This document shows, in pieces, positions 965 to 33,474 of a DNA stretch of 39,696 bases. Origin of the DNA: Terriglobia bacterium (GTDB taxonomy: Bacteria; Acidobacteriota; Terriglobia; Terriglobales; Acidobacteriaceae); NCBI GenBank assembly GCA_021324365.1, contig JAJPJE010000069.1, positions 1 through 39,696 on the forward strand, written 5' to 3'. The translations under genes and the position numbers were made by a program. Under the pieces are notes generated by a model. That model was not told the origin of the DNA and ran no database searches. It saw only the letters and a program-made list of their open reading frames with translations. The number at the start of each line of letters is the position of its first letter. Position 1 is the stretch's first letter.

Positions 965-2347
965 ATGGCCTCCCCTGCGAAGTTCCGCATCGACGTCGAC
1001 ATCCACAACATCCTCACCGGCAGTAATCAGAAAGGGCCTGAGCCCGCCAAGGCCATGGGCCTGACTTTACCGCAGCCAAAGTTTCCGCAGCATCCGGAAT
1101 TGCTGAGCGATCCCGGTCCAACCGTCCCGCCTGAAAGGCGCGAATGGAGCACCCGGGAGATCTACCGCAAGATGCGGGGCTGGCTGTTTCCCTACATTCG
1201 ATCGCGGGTGTACCCGGGAGAGTTCCACCCGATTACGGCGTATCTATTTCTCGAATACAAGTGCAACCTGGATTGCTGGTACTGCTGGTCGTTCAATAAC
1301 CAGGTAAAGGGAATGACGGAAGATGTTGCAAAGCGATCCATTGACTGGCTGCACGATCATGGGTGCCGAGTTCTCGCCCTGATGGGTGGCGAGCCGTTGT
1401 TGCGCCCGCAGTTTGCCCACAAGGTGGTGGACTACGCAGCCAAGAAAGGATTTTGGGTCTACATCGCGACGAACGGACGGTTGCTGCGTCCTGAGGTCAT
1501 GGATCGCCTTGGCGATGCGGGCGTCGCCTGTATTAACTTCGCGTTGGACTCGTGGGATCTGAAGCCCAGCCTTCCAAAAGCACTGGTTCCGGCCGAGAAG
1601 AACCTGGAGTACGTGCTGAAGAAGCAGTACGTGTATGGAAACATGGTGTTCTTCAACATCAACATCTGCCGCAACAACCTGGAAGATGTGCGCCGGTTGA
1701 CCGAATATGCGAGGGAACATCGTGTAGCGACCGATTATCACATTAATGAAACGCCAATGATCGAGCAGGATGATCACTTCAAGCATCTGTATGACAATCC
1801 AACGTACATTCGTCCGGAAGACTGGCGTGCGGTCGACGAGACCATCGACTGGATCATCGAGAAGAACCGATCCGGATACCAGATGGTGAACTCGATTCCG
1901 CGGCTGAAGGAGATGAAAGCGTTCATTCGGATGTCATCGGGCCTGGATCTGCGAAAAGTTGGCTGGTATGGCGACGGCACCAGCGGCAACGGGGAAGTGA
2001 CCGCTCTGATTGACGCTATGCCCGGAATCGAACGCGACGAAAGTGGCGAGTTGAGCTTTGCGGAATGGTCCTGTCGCGCGGGCCAGAACAACGTCATCAT
2101 CCGTACCGACGGTACCGTGGGACCGTGCTTCCCGATGTATTCGTCGAACTATGATTGGGGAAACATCGATCAGCCGAAGTTCGACGCGAAGCAGATGGGC
2201 GAAATGAAGAAGACCTGCCAGAAGCATTGCTTCTCGACGCTGAACCATAACCTAGCGTACTGCTATAACGACGCGCGCGTGATCAAGTGGTTGTGGAAGC
2301 AGGCGAAGAACGGATTCGGAGCAGGAGCTCGCAGTTTCGAGGACTGA
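965..2347 (+). CDS. Radical SAM protein with SPASM-like C-terminal domain, substrate unknown
   Basis: A 460-residue cytoplasmic radical SAM enzyme. The CX3CX2C cluster motif is CNLDCWYC (C100, C104, C107), followed by the SAM-contacting MGGEPLL. The C-terminal third has a SPASM/twitch pattern: a Cys (CRAGQN), an IRTDGTVGPC segment, a GNI motif, then KTCQKHC and a late Cys (AYCY), as expected for auxiliary [4Fe-4S] clusters. The first 95 residues are an extension with no recognised fold. AGGAGAA at 950-956 lies 8 nt before the ATG. The gene stands alone: there is no precursor peptide, transporter or partner enzyme beside it, and it has its own terminator. SPASM proteins modify peptides, proteins or small molecules; the substrate cannot be read from the sequence. 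Radical SAM class is sure, function unassigned. Confidence 0.9.
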   Translation: MASPAKFRIDVDIHNILTGSNQKGPEPAKAMGLTLPQPKFPQHPELLSDPGPTVPPERREWSTREIYRKMRGWLFPYIRSRVYPGEFHPITAYLFLEYKCNLDCWYCWSFNNQVKGMTEDVAKRSIDWLHDHGCRVLALMGGEPLLRPQFAHKVVDYAAKKGFWVYIATNGRLLRPEVMDRLGDAGVACINFALDSWDLKPSLPKALVPAEKNLEYVLKKQYVYGNMVFFNINICRNNLEDVRRLTEYAREHRVATDYHINETPMIEQDDHFKHLYDNPTYIRPEDWRAVDETIDWIIEKNRSGYQMVNSIPRLKEMKAFIRMSSGLDLRKVGWYGDGTSGNGEVTALIDAMPGIERDESGELSFAEWSCRAGQNNVIIRTDGTVGPCFPMYSSNYDWGNIDQPKFDAKQMGEMKKTCQKHCFSTLNHNLAYCYNDARVIKWLWKQAKNGFGAGARSFED

Positions 2348-4498: not shown

Positions 4499-7400
4499 AT
4501 GAGATTTGTTCATCGGTTGCCGGTCTTAATTATTGTTGTTTGCGCCAGTCTGTGCGCTCAGCAGATCACCGGGAACATCCGTGGCACGATCGTCGATTCG
4601 ACAGGCGCGCTAATCCAGGGTGCGACAGTCACTGCTCGGCAGACCGAAACTGGTTTGTCGCGTACGACAACTACAGATCGAAATGGAAACTACATTTTGC
4701 TCGAGTTGCCAGTCGGGCATTACCGTCTGCAAGTCACGGCGAAAGGATTTCAGGAATATATCCAGGACGGAATCTCGCTGAATGTCAACGAGACAGCGTC
4801 GGTTCCCGCGCACCTCGTGGTCGGGTCTGAGAGAGAGCAGGTCCAAGTGCGGGCGGATGCTGATCTAATCGAACCCACCGTCACCAGTATGGGCAAGGCA
4901 GTATTGCAACAAGAACTGGAAGAGTTGCCGCTGAACGGGCGTAACTTTTCTCAACTTGGTCTCCTTCAGCCCGGCGTGGTGCCTCTGACTCCGGGCCTAG
5001 CGGAGGCGGGCGGTTCACTTCGCGCCGGGCAGGCGTATGCCGTAAACGGGCAGCGCCCTGAGTCGAATAACTTCCTCATCGACGGCGCAAATAATTTCAA
5101 TGGTGTTGATGCAGGATTCGTGCTCAAGCCGCCAGTAGACGCGATCAGCGAATTCCGCATTCTCACGCACAATGCTACTGCTGAGTTCGGTGATAGCCTG
5201 GGATCGACCACAAACATCGTTACCCGTTCGGGCTCAAACAATATCCATGGCACGCTCTGGGAGTTCATCCGAAACGATGCCTTCGATGCACGGAACTACT
5301 TCGCTCAGCAAACGGAACCTCTAAAGCAGAATCAGTTCGGCGCCACTTTCGGCGGACCGATCAAAAAAGACAAGACTTTCTTCTTCGGCTTCTACGAGGG
5401 ATTTCGGAATCGGCAGGGCGAGACGGCATTGACGACAGTTCCATCCCTGAAGCAACGGAATGGGGATTTTTCAGAATTATGTCCCGAAGGATTTACAGGC
5501 GGGATGTGTAACAATCCGGCTCACCAGTTGTTTAACGTGTTTGCCAATGCACCGTATCCGAACAATCAGTTGCCGTCGGTCAATCCGATTTCGCAGGGAC
5601 TGCTGAGTTTCTTCCCGCTGCCCAACGTGGGCACGAACCTCTTTTCGACCACCCAGATACTGCACAACGATAGCGATCAATTTGGGATTAAGATTGACCA
5701 CTATCTCACGGCGCGAGATACGTTGAACTTCCGGTACATGTTCGACCAGTTGTCGCAGCTGGATCCATTGTCTCCGAGCGGAGCAAGCGTGCCGGGATTC
5801 CCGGTGGGTGAAGATCAGCGTGCGCAGAACTTCGTTGCCCAGGAAACGCATACCTTTTCGTCGGCCATGATATTTGTTGGGCGTTTCTCATTTCTGCGTA
5901 ACAAGTTCCTGTTCGGCGAACACATGAACAATCAATCGCCGGAAAGTCTCGGGTTCCAATATCAGCCGAGCCTCGGGCTCGCTGCTGGACCGCCATTCAT
6001 TCAGGTAAATGGCTATTCGACGGTGGGAGATCCGATCACTGGTCCGCGGAATACCTACGAAAATGTGTTCGACTACTCAGGGTCGTTCAGTTGGGTACTC
6101 GGGAAACACGAACTGAAGTTCGGCGGCGGGTACCAGCGTCAACAGATAAATGTATTGCAGGGCATCGCCACAAACGGCTTCTTTGTCTTTGCTCCATTCC
6201 CGGTGACCGACGCGTTCGCCAGTTTCCTTTATGGACAGCCCGTAGTGTTTCTTCAGGGCATAGGAGATTTCTCGCGGGGCATCCGCGGAAATGGTCTCAA
6301 CGGCTATATCCAGGACACCTACAAGGTGACATCCCGCCTTACGTTGAACCTCGGACTACGATATGACCTGCCAATGCCCGACACGGAAATTCATAACCGA
6401 CAGTCGCTTTGGATTCCCGGCAGGCAGTCACAAGTGATGCCGAATGCGCCTGCAGGACTCCTCTATCCAGGCGACCCGGGAGTACCGGCTGGGCTCATCT
6501 CGACTGACAAGACGGCTTTCGCGCCGCGTATAGGTGTAGCGTGGGATCCAACAGGCGACGGCAAGTGGTTGATTACTTCGGCCTATGGCATTTTTTACGA
6601 GCCTTATTACACGGGGCAAGGTGGTCCGTTACAGGCGCCGATCAGCGCGCCGCCATACCTGGGAACTCCGCAAGTGAGTTTGCCGAATTTTGGAAATCCG
6701 TTTGGCGGAAATCCCCCAGCGCCTGGGACGTTCTCAACACCACTCACGAATCTGACACTATCTCCGACGATGACCCTTCCCTACACGCAGGACTGGGATT
6801 TGAACGTGCAACGTGCGTTCGGTGAAGATTGGCTGTTTGAAATCGGATATGTTGGAACAAAAGGCACACATCTACCACGCTTCATTGAAGCGAACCCGGC
6901 CGTTTTTGTGCCCGGCTTCGCCAACGGTCAGCCGATTTCCAATTCCAGCAACGCCGATCAGCGCCGGCTATACTCGGGCTGCACTTTAGCGAACTCTCCG
7001 AGCAGTTGCGTGTATTCATCGACAGGAGAGATTGCCAGCATCGCGAACTCTTCCTACAACGCGATGGAAATGAGTATGCGCAAGCGCTTCCGTCATGGCC
7101 TGTCATTCCTCGCCTCTTACACATGGTCGAAGTCCATCGATGATGTGTCGTCTTTCAACATGACGGGGTCGGCCGCGAAACCGGTTGCGGGCGAGAATGA
7201 CCTGGCGCAAAATCCTTTCAACCTGGCTGCGGAGCGCGGGTTGTCGTTGTTCGATGCGAGGAACCGATTCGTCGTCAGTTACGAATGGGCACTGCCGTTC
7301 TGGACCCATCCGCATGGTTGGTATCAACAGGCGTTTGGCGCATGGCAAGTATCCGGCATCGCGACTCTGATGAGCGGGACGCCGTTTACAGTCTTTGATT

Positions 7401-30355: not shown

Positions 30356-31432
30356 TTAAGAGAGTGGTTGGCCGTCGGCTTTCATTTGGCCCAGCAGCTT
30401 CAAATCAGTTTGCTTGAGCGAGTCCGGAATCGGTGCATAGTTGAGCGACTGTGCGGTTGCTTGCCCGTTGTTCACGACGTAAGTGATGAAATTCTTGATG
30501 TCGCTGCGCTGCTGCTTGTCAGAACCGTCCGCCGGGATGATCAGGAAGGTGAGACCGCTGATCGGATAGGCTTCCTTAGCTGCCGCCGGCGGATCGACAA
30601 TCGGATTGCGGATGTCTTGAGCGAGTTGATCTTTGAAAGCATCGATCGCGGCTGTTGTTCCCTCGGCTGAAGGCTTCACCCACTGGTCGGCCTTATTCTT
30701 GATGAGGGCAACTGGAAGATTATTCGTGGTGGCGTAAGTGAGTTCGACATAGCCAATGCTTCCGGGAGTCTGCTTCACAACTCCCGTTACACCTTCGCTC
30801 CCTTTACCGCCGATCCCCACTGGCCAGTTCACGGCCAGGCCTTGTCCAACCTTGCTCTTCCACTCCGGGCTCACCGCGGACAGATACGTCGTGAAGATAT
30901 TTGTCGTACCACTGCCTTCAGACCGGTGAGCGACAACGATTTCAGTTTTCGGAAGTGTGACTCCTGGATTGTCCTTCTTAATTTTCGGATCCTGCCAAGT
31001 CTTGATCGTTCCTAGAAAGATTCCCGACAGTGTGGAATCGCTGAGCTTCAAAGGTTCTTTGAGTTCGGGCAGGTTGTAGGTGATGCAAACAGGTCCGGCG
31101 CTCTCTGCGATCTGGATAACTGGCTGAGGCATCTCTTTGATCTGCTGATCGTCAAGCGCCATGTCGCTGGCAGCAAAACCAACCAAACCCTTCTTCAGCT
31201 GCTGAATACCTCCGCCGCTGCCGATGGATTGATAGTTCACTTCAACGCCGGCGTCCTGAGCATGAAAGTCGCTGATCCAGCGGCTCATGACCGGATACAC
31301 GAAGGTGCTTCCCGCAGCCACGATTGTGCCGCTACCGGTGGATGATTCATTCCCGCTCTTTTTCGAATTGCAGCCGACCAGTAATGAAGTGGCGGCGAGC
31401 ACCGCCAGGACGTAGCCGTGAAAACGCAACAT
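30356..31432 (-). CDS. pstS: Phosphate-binding lipoprotein PstS
   Basis: A 358-residue periplasmic phosphate receptor of the PstSCAB ABC importer. It has a lipoprotein signal (VLAVLAATSLLVGC, with Cys as the anchor), then the PstS blocks GSGTIVAAGSTFVYPVMSRW, YQSIGSGGGIQQL, VGFAASDMAL, VVAHRSEGSGTTNIFTTYLS and GSIGYVELTYA, which line the phosphate site. ATG 31432 has AGGAGG 6 nt upstream; the longer frame reading would put extra residues before the signal. No pstC, pstA or pstB follows within the window, since the next gene downstream is convergent. It shares its upstream region with a large divergent porin and with an 11-bp-periodic repeat, consistent with phosphate control. Confidence 0.95.
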   Translation of the reverse strand: MLRFHGYVLAVLAATSLLVGCNSKKSGNESSTGSGTIVAAGSTFVYPVMSRWISDFHAQDAGVEVNYQSIGSGGGIQQLKKGLVGFAASDMALDDQQIKEMPQPVIQIAESAGPVCITYNLPELKEPLKLSDSTLSGIFLGTIKTWQDPKIKKDNPGVTLPKTEIVVAHRSEGSGTTNIFTTYLSAVSPEWKSKVGQGLAVNWPVGIGGKGSEGVTGVVKQTPGSIGYVELTYATTNNLPVALIKNKADQWVKPSAEGTTAAIDAFKDQLAQDIRNPIVDPPAAAKEAYPISGLTFLIIPADGSDKQQRSDIKNFITYVVNNGQATAQSLNYAPIPDSLKQTDLKLLGQMKADGQPLS

Positions 31433-31453
31433 AAGAATCCTCCTAACACGATA

Positions 31454-31483
31454 CGAATAGAGAACGCGGCTCGTTGCAGTCAA
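31454..31483 (-). promoter_or_regulatory. Candidate promoter of pstS
   Basis: On the minus strand TTGACT (31483-31478) is a good -35, followed after 18 bp by TATTCG (31459-31454), a weak -10. The periodic box at 31499-31516 lies about 16 bp upstream, a position suitable for an activator. Confidence 0.4.
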
Positions 31484-31498
31484 GGCGCGCGCTCAATT

Positions 31499-31516
31499 TT
31501 CATCGAATGTTAACAA
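31499..31516 (+). promoter_or_regulatory. Pho-box-like operator, pstS side
   Basis: TTCATCGAATGTTAACAA, in which TTCAT (31499) and TTAAC (31510) are 11 bp apart. It matches the porin-side sequence at 31597-31614 in 16 of 18 positions, in the same orientation. Confidence 0.6.
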
Positions 31517-31574
31517 AAGGGTCGCAACTGCGTACTCACACAGCAATTCGCGTTTTCCGCAGATCACGTGCACG

Positions 31575-31628
31575 TTCACGGCATATTCACTCATCATTCA
31601 TCGCTTGTTAACAATGCTTTTCTACGAT
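31575..31628 (+). promoter_or_regulatory. Pho-box-like array of four 11-bp-spaced half-sites plus -10, porin side
   Basis: TTCAC, TTCAC, TTCAT and TTAAC begin at 31575, 31586, 31597 and 31608, exactly 11 bp apart and so on one face of the helix. A -10-like TACGAT follows at 31623-31628, with the array covering the -35 position. This is the layout of PhoB/PhoP-type boxes, where direct repeats at 11-bp period replace the -35. The start codon of the porin is 80 bp further on. Confidence 0.6.
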
Positions 31629-31707
31629 GCCCACGAAGCAACTTACATCGTTCTAGCAAACCGGGACACCAGAAGCCCACCGATTTCACTTTGTTTCAGG
31701 AGAGGCA

Positions 31708-33474
31708 ATGAAGCGAACAACAGCTCTAATGCTCTCAATCATGATGTCGATGAGCGCATTCGCGGCAGACCCAGCAAGTCCGCAAGCAACTACAAAGAAG
31801 ACAACAAGAACCAGGGCCACCAGTTCTGTCAGCGCTGAGATTCAGGAAATGAAGGAAGCCTTGGCCGCTCAGCAGCGCCAGATCGAAGAACTGAAACAAC
31901 AGGTGTCACAGCGCGATCAGGCGATTCAGCAGACGCAGCAGCAATTGAATCAGCTGGAGAGCGCCGCTTCGGCTGCACAGACGAAGGCTGATCAGGCCGC
32001 CGCCGCATCCTCGCAGGCGACCGAAAATGCAACGGCCCTGCAGAAAGACGTAGCAGATCTGAAACAGAACAACACGAACACCGCGCTGGAGTTGCAGGAG
32101 ACGCAAAAACGCGTTACCGGTGTGGAGAGTCCGTTATCGTTGCACTACAAGGGCATCACGCTAACTCCGGGTGGCTTCCTGGCAGCAGAAACCGTGTACC
32201 GCCAGCACGGAACACTGAGCGACATCAACACGCCGTTCACGTCCATTCCGTTTCCGGGCAGTAATACATACAACCAGTCGGAGTTTTTCGGTTCCGGCCG
32301 TCAGTCACGTTTGACGTTCCTCGCGGAAGGCAAATTAAGGAACATGAAGCTGACCGGTTACTACGAAATGGACTGGTTGGGTGCTGGGGTTACTTCAAAC
32401 AATAATCAGAGCAACAGCTACGTAAACCGGCAACGCCAGTTGTGGGGACAAGTTGCGACCAGCAGCGGCTGGACAATAACGGGCGGACAGATGTGGAGCT
32501 TGGTGACAGAAACCAAAAAGGGCCTCGATAATCGCACAGAAGCTTTACCGATGACCATCGATCCACAATACGAGGTAGGGTTCAGCTGGGCTCGTCAATA
32601 CGGTTTTCGCGTGACCAAGAACTTCAACAACAAAGTCTGGCTCGGCGCTTCGCTGGAAAATCCCCAAACGACTTTTGCGGCTTCGAATGCTGCAGCCAAT
32701 TTCAATATCGGCGGACCTGGTACCGGTGGTGGTTTGTATAACGCGACGGCCAACTATTCCTTGAACTACACGCCTGACTTCATCGTGAAAGCAGCATTCG
32801 AACCTGGCTTCGGTCATTACGAGATTTTCGGTGTGATCAGCAACTTCCGCGATCGCGTGTATCCGAATGCAACACTGGCGACACCCAGTGCGCTGGGCGC
32901 TTATAACTCCAGCAACGCGGGCGGCGGAATTGGTGCCAACGCTCGCGTAACGGTTCACAAGGTTATGGATGTTGGCCTTCATTTCCTCGGCGGCGACGGC
33001 GTAGGCCGGTATGGCAGCTCCAGCCTGCCGGATGCAACGGTTCACCCCGACGGGGCGCTCGCCTTGCTGCATAGCTATCAGGGCCTTGGAACACTGGAGT
33101 TTCATACCAAGAAATGGGATATCTACTTCAACGGTGGTGAGGAATACGTAAGCCGCGTTTCGAACTTGAATGCGAAGGGAACCCTGGTCGGCTACGGGGT
33201 CCAGAGCCTGAACAACAGCGGTTGCTTCCTCGAAGTGGTACCGGGTGCTGGCGGCTTTGCTCCGAACTCAGCCGCAAACTGCGCATCGGCCACGCGCAGC
33301 ATGTTCGAAGGCGTGGCGGGCTTCTGGTACAAGCTGTACAACGGAGACAAAGGCCGTATCCAATTCGGTCCGCAGTACTCCTACTTCCGCCGTAATACTT
33401 GGTATGGAGTCGGTGGTTCGCCGAATACGGACGACAACATGTTCTGGACTTCCTTCCGCTACTACCTTCCCTAG
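31708..33474 (+). CDS. Outer-membrane porin with periplasmic coiled coil, likely phosphate-related
   Basis: A 588-residue outer-membrane beta-barrel protein. Signal peptide is residues 1-19 (LMLSIMMSMSAFA). A Lys/Thr-rich stretch and a long coiled coil (about 45-140: EIQEMKEALAAQQRQIEEL, then QQVSQRDQAIQQTQQQLNQL and so on) come next, as in trimeric porins that reach into the periplasm. The rest is a barrel with many alternating, aromatic-edged strands, ending MFWTSFRYYLP. AGGAG lies about 6 nt before the ATG. Divergence from pstS and the shared operator-like repeats suggest it admits phosphate or phosphate esters, like OprP/OprO functionally; that specificity is inferred from context only. 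Confidence 0.82.
   Translation: MKRTTALMLSIMMSMSAFAADPASPQATTKKTTRTRATSSVSAEIQEMKEALAAQQRQIEELKQQVSQRDQAIQQTQQQLNQLESAASAAQTKADQAAAASSQATENATALQKDVADLKQNNTNTALELQETQKRVTGVESPLSLHYKGITLTPGGFLAAETVYRQHGTLSDINTPFTSIPFPGSNTYNQSEFFGSGRQSRLTFLAEGKLRNMKLTGYYEMDWLGAGVTSNNNQSNSYVNRQRQLWGQVATSSGWTITGGQMWSLVTETKKGLDNRTEALPMTIDPQYEVGFSWARQYGFRVTKNFNNKVWLGASLENPQTTFAASNAAANFNIGGPGTGGGLYNATANYSLNYTPDFIVKAAFEPGFGHYEIFGVISNFRDRVYPNATLATPSALGAYNSSNAGGGIGANARVTVHKVMDVGLHFLGGDGVGRYGSSSLPDATVHPDGALALLHSYQGLGTLEFHTKKWDIYFNGGEEYVSRVSNLNAKGTLVGYGVQSLNNSGCFLEVVPGAGGFAPNSAANCASATRSMFEGVAGFWYKLYNGDKGRIQFGPQYSYFRRNTWYGVGGSPNTDDNMFWTSFRYYLP

Follow-up and report, generated by a model that had tools for sequence, protein, structure and literature searches.

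Results

Organization of the pstS-porin intergenic region

In the 39.7-kb window (the whole stretch of DNA that was analysed), two genes are transcribed divergently from a common spacer. The minus-strand gene, pstS (30356..31432; TIGR00975, 360 bits for a cut-off of 205), starts at 31432 with GGAGG before it and is a second copy, distant from the pst operon carried by contig C80 of the same genome. On the plus strand, the gene starting at 31708 (31708..33474) encodes a probable outer-membrane porin of 588 aa, with a signal-peptide-like start, a coiled coil (approximately residues 38-137) and a barrel-like part. Its product was matched by no Pfam family at E 1e-3 and by no porin model of NCBIfam; the Pfam family Porin_O_P (phosphate-selective porin O/P) gave no match at 1e-3 and was not among the best 25 of the 52 families obtained at E up to 10. 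Comparison of a profile of the barrel with the PDB retrieved a single match at E up to 10, the DcaP-like porin 6eus, which is weak (E 0.0021; profile positions 46-206 of 440). When the protein was modelled by AlphaFold2 as a single sequence, the mean pLDDT was 38, helix 38-137 being predicted with high confidence and the remainder not. The 31708 product is likely a porin; since carboxylic acids are the reported substrates of DcaP porins in Acinetobacter (PMC12338516), its own substrate is not readable from the DcaP family.

Upstream of the porin gene, the units TTCAC, TTCAC, TTCAT and TTAAC start at 31575, 31586, 31597 and 31608, with a period of exactly 11 bp. This plus-strand array (TTCAC-N6-TTCAC-N6-TTCAT-N6-TTAAC, 31575..31612) scores 20/20 against four copies of a KTMAY consensus, which by eye resembles the known Pho-box cores CTGTCAT and GTTCACC (PMC4415409), and it may be read as two adjacent sites for PhoB dimers. 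It is followed on the same strand by a -10-like TACGAT (31623..31628), 15 nt past the start of the fourth unit, without a -35 hexamer, the place of which is occupied by the array. A σ70 scan of positions 31380-31760 gave no two-hexamer promoter match, as expected if an activator replaces the -35 element. A second, two-unit copy, TTCAT-N6-TTAAC (31499..31516, plus strand), is identical to 31597-31614 at 16 of 18 positions, in the same orientation. The initial annotation had placed all four units, TACGAT and the 31499 copy with its 16/18 match correctly to the base. The core that it proposed, TTCAY/TTAAC, describes the units found at the porin, but the wider core is KTMAY, GTAAC being frequent.

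The pattern TTCAYN6TTMAY occurs four times in the window, for 0.49 expected, always on the plus strand of the pstS-porin spacer, and none of 100 shuffles reached four occurrences. Perfect KTMAY pairs within the spacer number four at lag 11, and none occurs there at lags of 6-44 other than multiples of 11. Outside the spacer, the window holds one pair at lag 11, for an average of 2.29 at such other lags.

Conservation of the array upstream of pstS genes

A search for PstS in 61 genomes yielded 61 matches in 53 genomes, and the 30 loci with DNA were analysed; nine distant loci from a pstS scan of named genomes were left out. Twelve loci (L016-L027, including the window's own) carry a window-type pstS, the 11 others being 54-65% identical to the window PstS, and 18 (L028-L045) carry a second type, 43-49% identical to it. 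Upstream of second-type pstS, a four-unit sense KTMAY array scoring 18-20/20 was found at 16 of 18 loci, the exceptions being L043 (13) and L044 (16). At periods of 8, 9, 10, 12 and 13, the best scores of the second-type regions were 13-17, and among 4800 shuffled regions a score of 18 was reached by nine, 19 by one and 20 by none. KTMAY pairs peaked at lag 11 and its multiples, with 36 pairs at lag 11 for the 18 loci compared to a mean of 1.29 at lags other than multiples of 11; in control stretches taken from within genes and from downstream of them (29 loci each), one and zero lag-11 pairs were counted, respectively. Measured from the start of the final unit, a TA step lies at +15 in the window and in 16 of 21 arrays from relatives (16 pstS, 5 porin), with at most four arrays at any other offset between 5 and 39. 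TACGAT lies at this distance; the initial annotation had already noted that it stands where an activator-covered promoter would need it.

The initial annotation had also set conservation upstream of pstS orthologues as a test that could refute it and, for window-type pstS, the outcome goes against it: among the 11 others, one (L019, 19/20) is preceded by a sense array scoring 18 or more, and three have a sense unit pair. At L019, a 20/20 array (1432-1469, minus strand) is also present just downstream of the window-type pstS, aimed at the next reading frame, for which no Pfam match was obtained.

The 31575 array and the 31499 copy are both oriented towards the porin. When the spacer was scanned on behalf of pstS, no Pho array made of independent units was found in the sense orientation, the sole sense score of 17 being the mirror of the porin array, and the perfect KTMAY units of the minus strand are two single TTAAC that stem from palindromic GTTAAC. 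The 31499 copy scores 18/20 for KTMAY if the two poor units after it are included and only 1.7 bits with the matrix described below; a second array scoring at least 17 is absent from the five closest porin promoters of relatives. Since the 31499 copy is aimed at the porin, has a matrix score of 1.7 bits and lacks a counterpart of at least 17 in these five promoters, it does not qualify as a conventional pstS operator.

We nevertheless considered a two-way operator, shared by the divergent genes, in which the 31499 copy would serve pstS and the 31575 array the porin, both under phosphate control. The 16/18 duplicate starts 67 nt upstream of the pstS start, divergent pstS/porin pairs also occur in two other genomes (G008 and G038), and the L019 array shows that a window-type pstS can carry a sense array. 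Given the direction of both window sites, the two lone palindrome-derived units on the minus strand, the matrix score of the 31499 copy and the single sense array of at least 18 among the 11 other window-type loci, such a shared operator appears rather unlikely, with perhaps one chance in a few of being real. An operator directed at the porin is the reading followed below.

Conservation of the array upstream of porin genes and linkage of porin to pstS

Relatives of the porin were detected in 50 of 61 genomes; 30 loci were obtained, and the matrix was run on the 27 with a usable upstream region. Besides the window there are 17 same-family loci, of which 10 have a sense array scoring 18/20 or better: L059, L064 and L074 score 20, L058, L061 and L068 score 19, and L066, L067, L069 and L070 score 18. 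The seven loci without such an array include L060 and L062, where the porin gene lies in tandem behind pstS. The array of L065 scores 17, none was found at 17 for L063, L072 and L073, and L075 has an antisense array only. The latter consists of five units (TTCAC TTCAT TTCAC TTTAC TTAAC) and is directed away from the porin, perhaps towards a divergent gene.

The 44-column matrix was built from 16 second-type pstS arrays, one each from 16 other genomes. As these training sites were chosen by KTMAY score, it is independent of the window sequence, not of the motif idea. It was applied to the 17 same-family porin loci, with sense sites considered up to 450 nt from the start. The best of these sites was the top of the locus in 12 cases and exceeded 19.7 bits, the highest value in simulated windows (see below), at L058, L059, L061, L064, L070 and L074. 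KTMAY pairs at lag 11 amounted to 16 for 15 same-family porins (mean of lags that are not multiples of 11, 0.86) and to 16 for 10 porins of other families (mean, 0.37). In this other-family set, from which L079 and L085 were excluded since they lack a usable upstream region, perfect lag-11 unit pairs are present at nine of the ten loci, all in the sense orientation. No matrix site above 13.0 bits was found at these ten loci and 18/20 was reached by L080 only; by eye, L084 and L086 have two separate two-unit boxes and not a four-unit array. On the basis of the matrix run over the 27 porin loci, the claim was therefore narrowed for other-family porins, with no change in the probability given to the window site.

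Of 48 genomes with matches to both porin and pstS, 25 have the two at most 2 kb apart, divergently in three and in tandem in 22. In 14 of these 25 genomes the porin match spans the barrel, and in 11 it covers the N-terminal coiled coil only; the four scanned of these 11 belong to Pfam Porin_5, a different porin family. In the sister family, a porin match adjoins the window-type pstS at five loci of five (L023-L027). For the other six window-type pstS of the window's own family (L017-L022), no match to this porin was found within the 1.5-kb flanks; the 15 neighbouring reading frames scanned differ between the loci, one of them, at L018, encoding an ABC permease convergent with pstS. Two of five plasmid records with a relative of the porin were inspected (Methylocella and Acetobacter) and have no annotated pstS within 4 kb. 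With 25 of 48 genomes linked, and with L023-L027 paired and L017-L022 not, pstS in this class is often paired with a porin, not always with this one.

Phosphate genes and other arrays in the same genome

On contig C80, phoB- and phoR-like genes (below, phoB and phoR), a phoU-like gene, pstS2, pstC, pstA, pstB and phoU follow each other in one direction. The regulator has PhoB as its best match among 93 NCBIfam families (244 bits, under the cut-off of 296.2), and the kinase matches PnpS (362.6, cut-off 400) and PhoR (313.9, cut-off 334.2), both below cut-off; the identity of this pair as PhoB and PhoR is supported by the gene order phoB-phoR-phoU-pst. The phoU-like gene located between phoR and pstS2 (L046:5519-6301) is a second PhoU-like gene, with a two-unit match, TTCAT-N6-TTCAC, upstream.

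Arrays are also shared with pst and pho genes of this genome, a kind of check that the initial annotation had proposed for phoU, phoB and pstC. The pstS2 promoter contains TTCAC-TTCAA-GTAAC-TTAAC at 11-bp period (28.1 bits). Between phoB and the gene of an S9 peptidase, which are divergent, lies TTCAC TTCAC GTAAC TTCAC TTCAC at an exact 11-bp period (L046:8988-9036, 25.1 bits). The latter array points at the peptidase gene and ends 10 nt short of its called start codon.

These arrays bear on the identity of the regulator. Another response regulator of the OmpR family could bind the 31575 array in place of PhoB, as several recognize direct repeats of a similar period, receiver-domain matches number 98 in the genome, and PhoP of M. 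tuberculosis has been reported with direct repeats of 7 bp separated by 4 bp. However, an array precedes the genome's own pst operon and 16 of 18 pstS loci of relatives, which indicates a phosphate regulator and makes a different OmpR-family protein improbable. PhoB is thus retained as the presumed ligand.

Four further sites may extend the set. Close to the pst operon on C80, the gene of a TonB-dependent receptor (L015:9483-12164) is preceded by a three-unit array (L015:9371-9397, 12.3 bits) with TAGTCT at +15 and is a candidate Pho-controlled receptor. On contig C2, a metallophosphoesterase gene (L014:6381-7187) has a three-unit site 35 nt upstream (7223-7249, minus strand, 11.9 bits). By matrix, these two scores are within the range of simulated windows; both sites fit the exact three-unit pattern. 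The metallophosphoesterase gene adjoins genes for a GT28/MGDG-synthase-like glycosyltransferase and an acyltransferase, preceded by arrays at L014 2203-2246 (plus strand, 20.8 bits) and 4881-4924 (plus strand, 20.4 bits), respectively, so that this cluster carries three 11-bp arrays. In other bacteria, glycolipids replace phospholipids at low phosphate via PlcP and a glycosyltransferase; the cluster fits such a role, and phosphate-controlled remodelling of membrane lipids is a possible function for it. Sequences resembling -10 elements lie a few nucleotides before the called starts of the glycosyltransferase and acyltransferase genes (L014, about 2251-2264 and 4929-4941); owing to this proximity, the mRNAs may be leaderless or the starts miscalled. 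Within this genome, the porin, TonB receptor and acyltransferase arrays have the TA step at +15 and the pstS2 array has it at +14, whereas it is not seen for the glycosyltransferase.

Genome-wide scans were carried out with a profile (R1) and with unit patterns. With 150 of 368 first-look candidates scored, R1 gave five matches at E up to 10: the window site, which ranked second (E 0.036), three sites on C80 (pstS2, TonB receptor and S9 peptidase) and C1:19695, which was by eye taken for a chance match inside a gene; the C2 arrays detected by the matrix were not found by R1 among these candidates. The exact three-unit TTMAY pattern gave four matches at three places, two of them overlapping in the window and the others before the metallophosphoesterase and TonB-dependent receptor genes, for none in the reversed control. 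The two-unit pattern matched 45 times in 4.44 Mb compared to 33 times in the reversed control and is therefore not specific alone. Among nine two-unit places (L048-L056, 9 of the 45 matches), the best matrix scores were 16.2 bits (L055), 14.6 (L050) and 9.8 (L054); the L055 site, at about 1344-1387 of the minus strand on contig C28 of the same genome, surrounds its two-unit match.

With the matrix, the 31575 site scored 26.4 bits, the highest value in the window, the runner-up non-overlapping site reaching 6.7 bits; 100 simulated windows gave a mean of 7.5 bits and a maximum of 19.7. That AT-rich words of the spacer became aligned by chance, as the commonness of two-unit matches might suggest, is hardly conceivable for four perfect units scoring above every simulated window and conserved in orthologous promoters (10 of 17 at 18 or more; 6 of 17 above 19.7 bits).

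Discussion

Taken together, the array with its 11-bp period, the spacing of the -10 element, the conservation before pstS and porin genes, and the presence of phoB-, phoR- and pst-like genes form the basis for a Pho operator. We consider it highly probable that 31575-31612 is a PhoB-type Pho operator and that it drives expression of the 31708 porin, PhoB binding and the response to phosphate being deduced from sequence. The porin would very probably be switched on in phosphate shortage. The proposal of the initial annotation, that this is the Pho operator of the lineage and that the porin belongs to the Pho regulon, is supported by arrays at 16 of 18 second-type pstS and 10 of 17 same-family porins, by the distance to the -10 element and by the arrays at phosphate genes of the same genome.

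In the mechanism that we propose, the PhoR kinase would phosphorylate the PhoB homologue encoded on C80 under phosphate shortage. Two PhoB dimers, arranged head to tail, would then occupy the four 11-bp units, replacing the -35 element, and recruit σ70-RNA polymerase to the -10 sequence TACGAT, leading to more porin. Through the porin, phosphate or a phosphorus compound may cross the outer membrane and reach the PstS proteins of the periplasm, the nature of the permeant being presumed.

In E. coli, the array of the PhoB Pho box stands in place of the -35 element. Its CTGTCAT units are directly repeated every 11 bp, with 7 bp of each conserved, and are found before pst genes (PMC4415409, PMC2648988). 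The array described here is alike in its 11-bp direct repeats upstream of pst genes and in its position at -35, whereas its units are KTMAY, usually four in number, with TTCAC, TTCAT and TTAAC at the porin and GTAAC often third at pstS. The Streptomyces PhoP Pho box (GTTCACC, 11-nt units in varying number; PMC4415409) shares the TTCAC core, the unit length and the variable number of units; here, by contrast, the array ends with a KTAAY unit at 15 of the 16 pstS loci and at five porin loci of relatives, and the target is a porin.

PhoE is a porin of phosphate starvation. The same holds for OprP and OprO (PMC3831634). The protein studied here resembles these three as an outer-membrane channel for which phosphate control is expected, but it has no Pfam porin match at 1e-3 and its nearest solved relative by profile is, weakly, the DcaP-like 6eus. 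No account of a Pho box of this lineage was found by title, nor in the available portions of PMC3160421, PMC3831634 and PMC9426549. Switches of this kind are well known; the present one has been mapped in a lineage that has received little study.

It is about an even bet that the lineage has its own outer-membrane module for phosphate starvation, made of a coiled-coil, DcaP-like porin without a match to the OprP/OprO profile. Within its own family, this porin would be governed by a four-unit Pho operator, and across the class its gene would recur beside pstS, either in tandem or divergently; porin and binding protein would then act as a two-step unit for phosphate capture. The analysis provides a testable model of the Pho operator for this lineage (four KTMAY units at 11-bp period with the -10 element at +15) and further candidate Pho targets, namely the TonB receptor, the glycolipid-type cluster and the S9 peptidase. 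It would also tie an otherwise unannotated family of outer-membrane proteins to phosphate supply.
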